From assembly GCA_016188625.1 (NCBI GenBank), contig JACPHL010000028.1, positions 1 to 7,285 of the forward strand: a stretch of DNA of 7,285 bases, written 5' to 3'. The translations under genes and the position numbers were made by a program. The DNA is from Candidatus Rokuibacteriota bacterium. GTDB lineage: Bacteria > Methylomirabilota > Methylomirabilia > Rokubacteriales > JACPHL01. Below are positions 3,149 through 7,285 of this stretch, piece after piece; position 1 is the stretch's first letter; every line of letters starts with the position of its first letter. The notes below the pieces were generated by a model. That model was not told the origin of the DNA, did no database searches, and worked only from the letters and a program-made list of their open reading frames with translations.

Positions 3149-3964
3149 TTAGTCGTCCGAGGGGGAGGGCTCGCGGGCGGCCCCCACGGTCTCTCGGAGG
3201 CCGTTGAGATCGAGGGCGTCGCCGCCGGCGTAGAGGTTGAACGCCTCGGGCTTCAGGTAGCCGACGACGGTGACCCCGAGCTGCTCGGCCAGCGAGACGG
3301 CCATCTCGGTCGGCGAGGTCCGCGAGACCACCAGGGGGACCTCCATGCGGGCCGCCTTGAGGAGCATCTCCGAGGAGATCCGCCCGGTGGAGAGGAGGAA
3401 CTTGTCCTCGGTCGGGATCCCCCGCAGGAGGGCCTCCCCCTTGATCTTGTCCACGGCGTTGTGGCGCCCGACGTCCTCGACCACGATCAGCAGCTCCTCG
3501 GGGGTGGCAAGGCCCGCCCCGTGGATCCCGCGCGAGGCCTGGTAGTTCACCGCCTGGCGGTAGAGGTCCTTCATCCGCTCGAAGATCTTCTGGGGCGGCA
3601 CCTTGAGCGCCGAGCGCACCCGGGTGAAGAGCCGGGGGTCGATCCTGAAGGTGATCCCGCCCCCGCACCCCGAGGTGAGGATGCGCTCCTTGGGCAGCTC
3701 CACCTCGCGGACCAGCTCGACCTCGGCCCGGCCATCGACCTCGGAGACGGCCAGGCGCTTGATGTCATCGAGGCCCGAGATGACTTTCTCCAGCCAGAGA
3801 TAGCCGAGGACCAGGCAGTCGAGCTTCTGGGGGGTGGAGAGGAGGGTGATGAACTTCTGGCCGTTGACGAAGACCGTCAACGGCTGCTCCCGGACGACCT
3901 CGCCCTTGACCTCCTTGAGCTCCCCCTTGGAATAGCTGAAATACGTCCGCACGGCCCCTCCCAT
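3149..3964 (-). CDS. fdhD: Formate dehydrogenase accessory sulfurtransferase FdhD
   Basis: FdhD moves sulfur from a cysteine desulfurase to the Mo/W bis-MGD cofactor of formate dehydrogenases, which is needed for their activity. Family signatures are clear (numbered from the ATG at 3964): EQPLTVFVNGQ (26-36), LVLGYLWLE (51-59), TSGCGGG (97-103), VEDVGRHNAVDKIKGEAL (162-179), STGRISSEML (192-201) and SRTSPTEMAV (214-223). The sulfur-carrying loop has one cysteine, CGGG (C100), where E. coli FdhD has CxxC. The ATG at 3964 gives 271 aa but has no clear ribosome site. A GTG at 3952 with GGGAGGGG just upstream, or a TTG at 3997, could be the true start; all conserved sequence lies inside either way. 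It is divergent from the HdrA-like operon and upstream of hemC on the same strand. Function is secure, the start is not. Confidence 0.93.
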   Translation of the reverse strand: MGGAVRTYFSYSKGELKEVKGEVVREQPLTVFVNGQKFITLLSTPQKLDCLVLGYLWLEKVISGLDDIKRLAVSEVDGRAEVELVREVELPKERILTSGCGGGITFRIDPRLFTRVRSALKVPPQKIFERMKDLYRQAVNYQASRGIHGAGLATPEELLIVVEDVGRHNAVDKIKGEALLRGIPTEDKFLLSTGRISSEMLLKAARMEVPLVVSRTSPTEMAVSLAEQLGVTVVGYLKPEAFNLYAGGDALDLNGLRETVGAAREPSPSDD

Positions 3965-3985
3965 CCCAAGGGTAGCGGGGCGACC

Positions 3986-4007
3986 CGGAAAAGGCAAGGG
4001 GTTTCCG
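3986..4007. repeat. Short inverted repeat between fdhD and the hdrA-like gene
   Basis: CGGAAA (3986-3991) and TTTCCG (4002-4007) form 6-bp arms around a 10-nt loop in the divergent spacer, 10 bp upstream of the -35 box of the plus-strand operon. The position suits an operator shared by both directions, but six base pairs is weak evidence. Confidence 0.25.
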
Positions 4008-4055: not shown

Positions 4056-6130
4056 ATGCGGTGGGGGGTCATCCTCTGTACCTGCAACGACACCCTCCCG
4101 ATCGACCCGAAGGCGATCGGGAAGGCCCTGGGCCTCGAGCGCCCCCCTGTCCTCTACTCCCGCCTCCCCCGTGACGAGATCCACTCCTTCCTCTCCCTGG
4201 CGAGCCGCGAGCGCTACGACCGGGTCCTGATCGGCTGCTGCGGCCCGAGGGAGCTCTTCACCGAGGCCCTGGCCGCGGCCGGGGCGGAGGGGACCCCGCT
4301 TCATCTTCTGGATCTCCGGGAGAGCTGTTACTGGCCCCACGGAGACCGCGAGGCGGCCAACGCCAAGGCGGCCCGCCTCCTCCGGGTGACCTTCCACGGC
4401 GCCGACCAGGGGGAGCGGGTCGTCGAGCACCCCCTGACGGTCGGTGGGCGCGTCCTCATCGCCGCCGACTCCCCCGACGGGCTCGCCCTGGCCAGGCGGA
4501 TCGGCGAGTTCGCCACCCCCGTCCTCCTCCTGGACGAGCGCACCGCGGCCTTCGACCCCGCCTTCCGCTACCCCCTCCCCTGGAAGGTCAACTGGGGGCG
4601 GATCGCGGAGATCCGGGGGCGGCTCGGGGAGTTCCAGGTCATCGTCGAGCGGACCCAGCCGATCGACCGCGAGACCTGCATCTACTGCCGGAAGCGCACC
4701 CCGGTCTGCCACACCGCGGCGATCACCGAGGGGCTCCGGCTACGCCTGGATCTCTGCGACCGCTGCGGGGACTGCCTGACCGCCTGCGAGAAGGTCGGGG
4801 CGATCAAGATCCCCCGCGAGGACCGGGATGTCATCAAGGCCGACCAGGTCGTCGTCCTCACCCACGACGGCGTGGAGCCCGGCCCGTACCGGACCGGGCA
4901 CCTGGTCCTGGCGAACTCCTCCCCGGCCGATCTCGACGCGGCGGCCTGGAAGGTCTACGGGCTCGTGGGGGAGTTCCGGAAGCCGGAGCACGTCCGCTAC
5001 AACCCCGAGACCTGCGCGGCCGGCGCCTCCACCTGCCGCGGCTGCGGGGTCTGCATCACGGCCTGCCCCTACGAGGCGATCGACCGGGAGCGGGACCGGG
5101 TGCGGGTGGACCAGTTCACCTGCGAGGGGTGCGGGGCGTGCGTCTCCGCCTGCCCGACCTCCTCGCTGACCTTCACCGAGCCCTCCGACGCCGAGTTGTA
5201 CGCCCGGCTCCAGGCCCTCCTCGCGCCCCTTCCGGGGCGGAACGGAGCTGACCGGCCCGTCGTCGCCTTCCACTGTAGCGAGAAGGGGCGCGAGGCCTTC
5301 CAGGCCGCCGGCCGCCTCCGCCTCCCCTACCCCGCCAGCGTGCTCCCCATCGGCGGCCCCTGCCTCCGCTACTTCTCAGAGGCGAACATCCTGGCCGCCT
5401 TCCGGATGGGCGCCGCCGGCGTCGCCCTGGTGGGGTGCGAGAGCTGCCCGCACGGGGAACGGGAGCTGCTCTACCAGAAGGTGGAGTTCGCCCGGCGGGT
5501 CCTGGACGCCTTCGGCTTCGGCGCCGAGCGGCTCCACCTGCTCACCGGCGCCGCCGGCGAGGAGGCGGCGACAGTCGAGGCCTTACGCCGCTTCGCCGAG
5601 GCGGTGGGGGATCCGCCGGTCCGCTGGGACGGCCAACCGTTCGCCGAGCGCGACAACCGGGCGGTGATCGCCGGGACGATCGCGACCTTCATCGCCGCGA
5701 CGGGACGGGAGCCCGGCCGCGTCCCCCTCGATCCGCCCCAGCCGTTCGCCCTCGCCGAGGTTGACGCCCCCGGCTGCACCCTCTGCCGCTCCTGCGTCAA
5801 TGTCTGCCCCACCCACGCCTTCCGGTTGGTGGAGGCCACGCACACCCTCGAGTTCAAGCAGCTCGCCTGCGTGGCCTGCGGGCTCTGCGAGCAGGCCTGC
5901 CCGGAGCGCGTGATCACGCTCAAGCGCGCGGTCTTCCTCGATCGGGGGGCCCTCGAGTACCAGCCTGTCGTCCAGGACGAGATGGTCGGCTGCGCCAAGT
6001 GCGGTAAGCCCTACATCAACCGCCGGGCCCTCGAGGCGGTGGAGAAGAAGGTCCTGGGGATGGAGGCCTGTGCCCCAACTGCCGGGCGGTGGTGGCGGTG
6101 CTGGAGATGCAGCAGGGGTGGGAGCCTTGA
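4056..6130 (+). CDS. HdrA-like/MvhD fusion iron-sulfur protein, C-terminus frameshifted
   Basis: Likely a soluble electron relay for a partner oxidoreductase. Residues 1-115 match the HdrA N-terminus: VILCTC (C8, C10), IGCCGPRE (C61, C62), then LDLRESCYWPHGDREAANAKAARLL. Residues 131-160 sit where HdrA binds FAD but lack GxGxxG. An irregular cluster region follows (C208, C211, C218; C234, C237, C240, C244), then a two-cluster ferredoxin (C327/330/333/337, C356/359/362/366). An MvhD-type domain spans about 400-500 (C407, C436, GCESCPHG with C461 and C464). A second two-cluster ferredoxin (C574/577/580/584, C605/608/611/615) and GCAKCGK (C646, C649) end it. The frame used runs on to 6272 with nonsense-like sequence. 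The -1 frame instead gives LCPNCRAVVAVLEMQQGWEP with a stop at 6130 that overlaps the next start, so I end the gene there. Expected length is about 691 aa. Confidence 0.85.
6056..6130 (+). other. Frameshifted C-terminal tail of the HdrA-MvhD gene
   Basis: Up to GCAKCGKPYINRRALEAVEKKVLG the frame starting at 4056 is coherent. After the G run at 6056-6059 it turns into Trp-, Arg- and Gly-rich sequence and ends at 6272, overlapping the next gene by about 145 bp. Read one base back, the DNA gives GDGGLCPNC and then RAVVAVLEMQQGWEP with a stop at 6128-6130. The CPNC pair would complete a four-cysteine zinc-knuckle-like site with C646 and C649. One extra G in the run would restore the frame; a longer deletion is also possible. 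It may be a real mutation, an assembly or sequencing indel, or, less likely, recoding. Confidence 0.7.
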
Positions 6131-6561
6131 AGAAGAAGGGGGGGCGACAGCAAGGCAAGGAGTTCCTGGACGCGGCGTTCGAAGCCTTTGCCCGACACTG
6201 CGCCCTGGAGAAGTGGCGGGAGACGGAGGACATACGGGAGACCCTGGGCTTCGACACCCCCGGGGCCGTTGAGGAGGCCTGCACCTTCCTCGAGCGGGGC
6301 CCCTATCGGCACATCTGGCGCCGGCACTGGCGCGCAGTGGTGGCGCCGGTGGCGGTCGCCAAGGGCTGGGGCGGGGACCTCTTCGCGGCCATGGAGGAGG
6401 CGATCGCCGTGGCCTTCCGGGAGGAGGTCGAGGAACGGCGCCGCCAGGGCGATCGGCCGATCGAGGAGGACCCCGAGTACAAGGGCTTTCTGGATCGGGC
6501 CATGAATCAGCTCTTCCGGGAGGCGGCCGGCGAGCTCGAGCCGCCGGACTCGGAACCATGA
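6127..6561 (+). CDS. Unrecognised 144-aa helical protein between hdrA-mvhD and torD
   Basis: I do not recognise this family. From the TTG at 6127 the product is 144 aa: a basic start (KKKGGRQQ), then charged, probably helical sequence with several tryptophans and EEVEERRRQGDRP near residue 100, and an acidic end. There are no cysteines beyond two scattered ones, no signal peptide and no membrane segment, so it is likely cytoplasmic and not an iron-sulfur protein. The TTG overlaps the corrected upstream stop as TTGA and has AGGGG (6114-6118) before it. A GTG at 6118 or an ATG at 6070 are alternative starts. Its stop overlaps the torD start as ATGA. Tight coupling between an electron-transfer protein and a redox-enzyme chaperone suggests a role in assembling or regulating the same enzyme; that is inference from context only. 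Confidence 0.8.
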   Translation: MKKKGGRQQGKEFLDAAFEAFARHCALEKWRETEDIRETLGFDTPGAVEEACTFLERGPYRHIWRRHWRAVVAPVAVAKGWGGDLFAAMEEAIAVAFREEVEERRRQGDRPIEEDPEYKGFLDRAMNQLFREAAGELEPPDSEP

Positions 6562-7285
6562 TCGGGGATCGGGACCTCCTCGAGTTCCGCCGGACCTACT
6601 ACGACCTCCTCGTGGCGTTCTTCTGGCGGGAGCCCATGGTGGAGCTGCTCGGCCCCCTCCGGGAGGGGATCGAGGAGCGGACCCGAGCCGCCTCAAGGCT
6701 CCATCCCCTCCTCGGCCAAGGGTGGGAGGAGATCGGGGGGTTCCTGGCCGGGCGCGCGCCCGAGGCTGCGGCCGAGGCCGCCGCCGACGAGTTCACCCGG
6801 CTCTTCCTGGGCCCCACGGCCCCCGAGGTCCACTCTTACGAGTCGTACTACCTGACGGGGAAGCTCCTGGACCGGCCCCTCGTCGCGATCCGGAGCTACC
6901 TCAAGAGCATCGGCATGGAGCGCGAGGAGAGCTACCCGGAGCCGGAGGACGCGCTGGCCTTCGAGCTGGGGGTGATGCGTCGGCTGATCGACCGCCAGGC
7001 GACCGAGTCGAACCCCGACGGCGAGACCCGGTGGGTGAACGTCCAGGCGACCTTCCTCAAGCTGCACCTCCTGGTCTGGGCCCCGACTTGCGCCCGGGAC
7101 ATGGAGGAGGCGAAGGGGGCCCGGCTCTACCGGGGGGTCGCCAGGCTCCTCCGGGGGTTCCTCGACCTCGAGCTCGACCGTGTCCGGGACTGGGGGCCGG
7201 TGGCCCTCCGCTCCCTGGAAGAGGCCCGCCAGGGCTACCTCGGGGCCGGGGAGTGGAAGGGCCCCCTGTTCGAGGTCCCCCCCGG
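6558..7285 (+). CDS. TorD/DmsD-family molybdoenzyme chaperone (3' end cut by window)
   Basis: TorD-family proteins bind an apo-molybdoenzyme, or its Tat signal, and hold it ready for cofactor insertion. The ATG at 6558 overlaps the upstream stop as ATGA. The frame stays open for 242 codons to the window edge, about full family length. The all-helical profile and core motifs fit: DEFTRLFLGP (77-86), YESYYLTGKLL (94-104), VAIRSYLKSIGM (109-120), then EPEDALAFELGVMRRL (128-143), followed by helices with TFLKLHLLVWAPTCARDM (165-182). In most relatives the EPED segment is followed by His; here it is Ala132. With fdhD nearby, the client is probably a formate dehydrogenase or related bis-MGD enzyme encoded just downstream. 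The family call is good; the specific client is inferred, so no symbol is given. Confidence 0.85.
   Translation, partial: MIGDRDLLEFRRTYYDLLVAFFWREPMVELLGPLREGIEERTRAASRLHPLLGQGWEEIGGFLAGRAPEAAAEAAADEFTRLFLGPTAPEVHSYESYYLTGKLLDRPLVAIRSYLKSIGMEREESYPEPEDALAFELGVMRRLIDRQATESNPDGETRWVNVQATFLKLHLLVWAPTCARDMEEAKGARLYRGVARLLRGFLDLELDRVRDWGPVALRSLEEARQGYLGAGEWKGPLFEVPP

Follow-up and report, generated by a model that had tools for sequence, protein, structure and literature searches.

An HdrA-FlpD-like polyferredoxin without the HdrA glycine motif and its possible role in the maturation of exported molybdoenzymes

Genes and features of the locus

The window (the whole 7,285-nt stretch of a Candidatus Rokuibacteriota contig that was analysed) carries fdhD and the haem genes hemC, hemD and hemB on its minus strand. 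The gene studied here lies beside fdhD on the plus strand and is followed by genes for a small conserved protein and a molybdoenzyme chaperone. The features are the following:

3149..3997, minus: fdhD, formate dehydrogenase accessory sulfurtransferase (PF02634, E 5e-68; TIGR00129 over cut-off)
4056..6068, plus: HdrA-FlpD polyferredoxin, very likely flavin-less; 671 codons in the conserved frame
4056..4430, plus: HdrA N-terminal domain, residues 1-125 (hhalign, structural matches, invariant columns)
4428..5009, plus: what is left of the HdrA FAD region after reduction, residues 125-318 (colinearity with HdrA)
4452..4499, plus: place of the HdrA GxGxxG motif, VLIAADSPDGLALARR, residues 133-148 (sequence reading and alignment)
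4677..4787, plus: first ferredoxin pair, residues 208-244, its first cluster one cysteine short (R214)
5013..5153, plus: second ferredoxin pair, residues 320-366 (Pfam Fer4 models; invariant cysteines)
5259..5606, plus: FlpD/MvhD domain with C407, C436, C461 and C464 (Pfam PF02662)
5775..5900, plus: third ferredoxin pair, residues 574-615 (Pfam, which places the pair at 574-617; conserved cysteines)
5991..6002, plus: C-terminal CxxC...CxxC ribbon, first half (C646, C649; invariant in 12 members)
6068..6069, plus: junction of a 31-nt deletion (DNA alignment with four homologues; frameshift)
6071..6130, plus: ribbon second half, CPNCRAVVAVLEMQQGWEP and stop, out of frame (homologue comparison)
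6127..6561, plus: small conserved protein, no family assigned, start uncertain
6558..7283, plus: TorD/NarJ-type molybdoenzyme chaperone (PF02613, E 3e-28), cut by the window end

The gene opens with the ATG at 4056, and its mechanical open reading frame (ORF) stays open to 6272. The original prediction had closed it at 5560. Homologues and the frame itself extend it to about 6068, and the protein thereby gains two more ferredoxin clusters and the CxxC ribbon. Judged by the same homologues, coding then passes to the +1 frame and stops at 6128-6130. The product is 63% identical to the long form in genome G025 and 52-60% identical to four further long forms, while plasmid relatives, matched along almost the entire length, are 25-28% identical. 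Four relatives agree on a 31-nt stretch that is missing from the window (within 6060-6131), and as a result the ribbon's closing CxxC is no longer read in frame. The deletion is either a genuine loss in the organism or an assembly error.

The frameshift and the loss of a cysteine could mark the onset of pseudogene formation. Besides the displaced CxxC, one cluster cysteine is substituted, and an fdhA matching this gene was not found in the window's assembly (best match 32% identity). The rest of the frame is nevertheless intact and well conserved across 671 residues, and the deletion itself may be an artifact of assembly. The assembly is 84% complete and spread over 344 contigs, and the contig breaks off inside the TorD gene, so the fdhA may simply be missing. 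We therefore regard decay of the gene in this organism as quite unlikely.

The small protein downstream is 37% identical (E 4e-20) to a homologue in G068; ORF 6070-6558 gave no match in Pfam or NCBIfam. Its gene separates the HdrA-FlpD-like gene from TorD in the window, G025 and G094; in G068 it stands upstream of the HdrA-FlpD-like gene.

Loss of the HdrA flavin site

HdrA is usually seen as a bifurcating flavoprotein. The N-terminus of the window protein had been described as a close match to it. The relationship stands (hhalign probability 98.1%, E 1e-13, for residues 1-128 against the HdrA N-terminal domain), but at about 23% identity it is not a close one. C8, C10, C61, C62 and C91 are invariant among six long forms. 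A structural model of residues 1-170, built with three HdrA-type rows (pLDDT 64), is usable for the N-terminal domain and not for residues 121-170. Its top six structural matches are all HdrA chains (Z 10.4-12.5), the model alignment itself having included an HdrA row. An alignment-free prediction of the full protein reached a pLDDT of 41.6 and was read for secondary structure only. The NCBIfam HdrA models score 155.6, 112.8 and 94.6 bits, far below their cut-offs of 1100, 1300 and 1400.

Beyond this domain, the segment VLIAADSPDGLALARR aligns against VLVIGGGxxG of HdrA and reads ADSPDG where HdrA and QmoB have GGGxxG. No GxGxxG/A occurs anywhere in the 671-residue product. The absence of the motif, as first reported for this protein, thus holds in the window and extends to every relative compared: 0/19 family members carry a glycine motif at the HdrA position, as against 5/5 HdrA/QmoB controls. 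Pattern matches elsewhere in the region in Variovorax and Microvirga are not at an equivalent position. The FAD region is also much reduced, spanning about 190 residues, partly ferredoxin, compared with about 400 in HdrA, and the short members of the family have no such region at all. The six long-form homologues are colinear with an HdrA/QmoB profile across 504 columns (99.9% probability). By segment, residues 318-398 match the HdrA C-terminal ferredoxin (98.4%) and residues 398-520 match FlpD (93.3%). Residues 125-205, where HdrA has its first FAD strand, score 0.5% on their own, so homology there is by position alone. Proteins of the QmoB and HdrA types that are also encoded in the organism's genome have their glycine motifs intact, which makes the loss specific to the HdrA-FlpD-derived gene family.

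With the motif absent from 19/19 members, the FAD region halved and short members lacking it, flavin has very likely been lost from the window protein and from the family, as proposed from the window sequence; electron bifurcation would have been lost with it. An altered pocket that still binds flavin and retains an HdrA-like function would have to accommodate the same missing glycines, the loss of roughly half of the FAD domain and the complete lack of this domain in the short forms. In its favor, a strand-helix-strand is weakly predicted at residues 132-160, HdrA shares the glycine at G142, and close relatives conserve the region. We consider such retention highly improbable.

In one published survey, all HdrA paralogues of ANME archaea appeared to keep their FAD residues (PMC9012536), and a later survey classified domain variants among 1,152 archaeal HdrA sequences (PMC12054007). 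In the parts consulted, neither these surveys nor the literature on TorD-fdh operons describes the present flavin-free branch.

Iron-sulfur clusters and the FlpD domain

Five canonical Cx2Cx2Cx3C motifs begin at C234, C327, C356, C574 and C605. Five such motifs had been predicted; the count is right for the full ORF, and only three of them fall within 4056-5560. The third motif appears, from alignment, to use C320 instead of C327 in relatives. A sixth motif, C208-C211-x6-C218, is degenerate in the window, where codon 214 (window 4695-4700) is CGC for arginine as opposed to TGC for cysteine in three close relatives. Cysteines that never vary among 12 members include C320, C330, C333, C337, the C356 motif, C574, C580, C584, the C605 motif and C646/C649, and the closing CxxC is nearly invariant.

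Pfam FlpD (PF02662) matches residues 402-517 with 63.4 bits (cut-off 22.3). The MvhD-like set C407, C436, C461 and C464, which had been correctly numbered, falls inside this domain and provides four candidate [2Fe-2S] cysteines. Haloarchaea and the window's clade retain them; Variovorax and Sulfitobacter have lost them. The Sulfitobacter member also lacks the first ferredoxin pair.

The protein thus resembles HdrA/QmoB (HdrA-FlpD fusions) in having the N-terminal domain, a ferredoxin pair and FlpD in the same order. It differs from them in the missing GxGxxG, the halved FAD region, two extra C-terminal clusters and the CxxC ribbon, and its family's neighbors are TorD and a molybdoenzyme.

Family distribution and partner enzymes

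The family is spread over several bacterial lineages and haloarchaea. Its members bear no NCBI annotation beyond "4Fe-4S binding protein" or "hydrogenase iron-sulfur subunit". By sequence comparison, we place the window protein with the "4Fe-4S binding protein" of proteobacterial DUF3305/DUF3306-TorD-FDH operons and with the haloarchaeal "hydrogenase iron-sulfur subunit". Near full-length homology, the C-terminal clusters, the ribbon and the neighbors are common to all; the proteobacterial members are unlike the window protein in their lost FlpD cysteines and, in Sulfitobacter, the lost first ferredoxin pair. Hypothetical ferredoxins have been noted in TorD-fdh operons (Bay et al., 2015; PMC4464133). 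No experimental work on the family turned up in the literature that was searched. Shewanella SO4508, which is listed as a Tat substrate and a formate dehydrogenase accessory protein, was considered as a member, and its membership was not supported.

From 95 genomes of the window's phylum, 14 loci were compared, seven with long forms (one a contig-edge fragment) and seven with short forms. TorD adjoins 13 of these 14, the exception being G077. Over the roughly 30 Mb of the ten genomes with loci there are 28 TorD genes, from which the chance of adjacency is estimated at about 0.5% per locus. On plasmids, TorD and a molybdopterin enzyme lie close by at all six loci that were opened (Variovorax, Sulfitobacter, Microvirga, Bradyrhizobium, Haladaptatus and Natronorubrum).

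In the window, the link to formate dehydrogenase is given by fdhD on one side and TorD on the other, where the nearest relatives also have fdhA. The latter gene follows in G094, G068 and G066; its counterpart in the window would lie beyond the contig end. In G066 the genes run in one direction as HdrA-FlpD-like gene, TorD, fdhA (with a Tat motif and an in-frame TGA), fdhB, NrfD-type subunit, fdhD and selB. G094 has the order of the window, HdrA-FlpD-like gene, small protein and TorD, followed by fdhA with the same TGA. A single in-frame TGA was seen in fdhA of G066 (L020:5337-8165), G094 (L021:5573-6211) and G070 (C200); the G072 copy has no stop. The TGA stands where selenocysteine is expected in such enzymes. 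These three fdhA genes thus probably encode selenocysteine formate dehydrogenases, with selB present in the G066 cluster.

The type of partner varies while TorD stays. Besides formate dehydrogenase, the partners include PhsA/ArrA-like molybdoenzymes, which accompany the short forms, and an enzyme in an ars region (the molybdopterin enzyme beside ars genes on the Natronorubrum plasmid). A Tat motif stands at the start of 10 of the 11 catalytic subunits checked. The exception is that of Haladaptatus, whose start may be misplaced. The window protein has no export signal when its N-terminus is read, so the export motifs are found on the partners only. FdhE was not found in the 95 genomes, and the loci examined showed no recognisable HdrB or HdrC and no constant acceptor gene.

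A second, short family member occurs in the window's own genome (G000:C172, L011:701-2488), beside TorD and an NrfD-like fragment. G076 encodes a shorter protein of a different kind (L051:3696-5117), akin to the Fer-FlpD part, near hemB- and hemL-like genes; neither TorD nor a molybdoenzyme was recognised near it. A scan of genome contigs returned only an ordinary HdrA from a Dehalococcoidia bacterium, a scan of viral contigs gave no true relative, and a search of plasmids with the short form found nothing. A tree built on the Fer-FlpD core that these proteins have in common had too little support to place the root.

Proposed role in enzyme maturation

The original prediction saw in this protein a possible one-polypeptide wire from formate dehydrogenase to an unknown acceptor. 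A single polypeptide derived from HdrA and MvhD, linked to formate dehydrogenase by its neighbors, is indeed supported. The permanent wire is the part that is not. Such a wire would pass electrons between a working formate dehydrogenase and a cytoplasmic partner, for example ferredoxin, that accepts or donates them; MvhD/FlpD does this between hydrogenase or Fdh and HdrA in methanogens, but the wire would act without bifurcation. HdrA and FlpD parts are electron-transfer modules, five or six clusters make a plausible chain, and methanogen HdrA complexes are known that take formate through FdhAB (PMC12054007). The Tat motifs, however, would place the working enzyme across the membrane with Fe-S and membrane subunits of its own, and the window protein carries no such signal. 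TorD is the constant neighbor while HdrB, HdrC and a regular acceptor gene are not seen, some partners are not formate dehydrogenases, and the FlpD cysteines are lost in proteobacterial members. We consider a permanent wire unlikely, and less likely than a maturation factor.

Exported partners, a constant TorD and partners other than formate dehydrogenase point instead to a step of enzyme assembly. With a Tat motif on the partners and none on the window protein, contact would occur only before export, as for TorD. We suggest, with a probability of roughly 0.55, that the window protein serves in the cytoplasm as a redox or Fe-S maturation factor, in the manner of NapF. It would descend from an HdrA-FlpD(MvhD) fusion, without the FAD and the bifurcation of HdrA, and would act with TorD and FdhD on the molybdenum subunit prior to Tat export. 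The FlpD domain, the C-terminal ribbon or both would touch the immature catalytic subunit held by TorD. Electrons would then flow from a cytosolic ferredoxin through the chain of [4Fe-4S] clusters into the immature enzyme, where they would help its Fe-S cluster and Mo/W-bisPGD cofactor to be inserted or reduced. FdhD would take part where the partner is a formate dehydrogenase. The finished subunit would leave through Tat, and the HdrA-FlpD-like protein would stay behind. The sequences themselves show the architecture, the missing flavin motif, the linkage of the genes and the distribution of export motifs; the location in the cytoplasm, the contacts with TorD and the catalytic subunit, and where and why electrons flow are inferred from them.

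The FlpD surface joins Hdr to formate dehydrogenase or hydrogenase in methanogens. There, MvhD hands electrons from hydrogenase to HdrA, and formate dehydrogenase can replace the hydrogenase in this transfer (PMC9012536; structure 7bkb). By analogy, docking of the FlpD domain on FdhA is plausible.

NapF is a cytoplasmic protein with four labile [4Fe-4S] clusters that is required for Fe-S reconstitution of NapA in vitro (reviewed in PMC10609526). The proposed likeness is that both would be proteins of ferredoxin type that attend to a Mo-bisPGD enzyme ahead of its export. The window protein is larger, has HdrA and FlpD domains and is not a NapF member (NCBIfam napF score 52.7 bits, under the cut-off of 102.2). 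In E. coli, periplasmic formate dehydrogenases are served by FdhE (PMC10609526). FdhE shares with the window protein CxxC pairs and, by our proposal, the service to exported formate dehydrogenases, but the window protein has no Pfam FdhE match. As FdhE was not found in the 95 genomes of the phylum, we speculate that the C-terminal ribbon may assume part of its work.

Some observations count against a maturation role. Gene linkage indicates a shared pathway and not a given step in it. The electron path cannot be identical in all members, since neither the first ferredoxin pair nor the FlpD cysteines are present throughout the family. The G077 locus stands without an adjacent TorD, and NapF is dispensable in some bacteria (PMC10609526).

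A broader version of the maturation proposal is tentative. The flavin-free HdrA-FlpD proteins, as a widespread and unrecognised class, might be general redox maturases of Tat-exported Mo/W-bisPGD enzymes, in which the FlpD surface feeds electrons to the TorD-held subunit and which replace FdhE where it is missing. If the maturation role is correct, the family would be a clear case of re-use, with the flavin discarded, the Fe-S modules and FlpD kept, and the whole tied to the assembly genes of exported molybdoenzymes. It would also be a candidate for the supply of reducing power and Fe-S clusters to periplasmic formate dehydrogenases and their kin ahead of export. Members are carried on plasmids of culturable bacteria (Sulfitobacter, Bradyrhizobium and Variovorax), so the role may be testable genetically.
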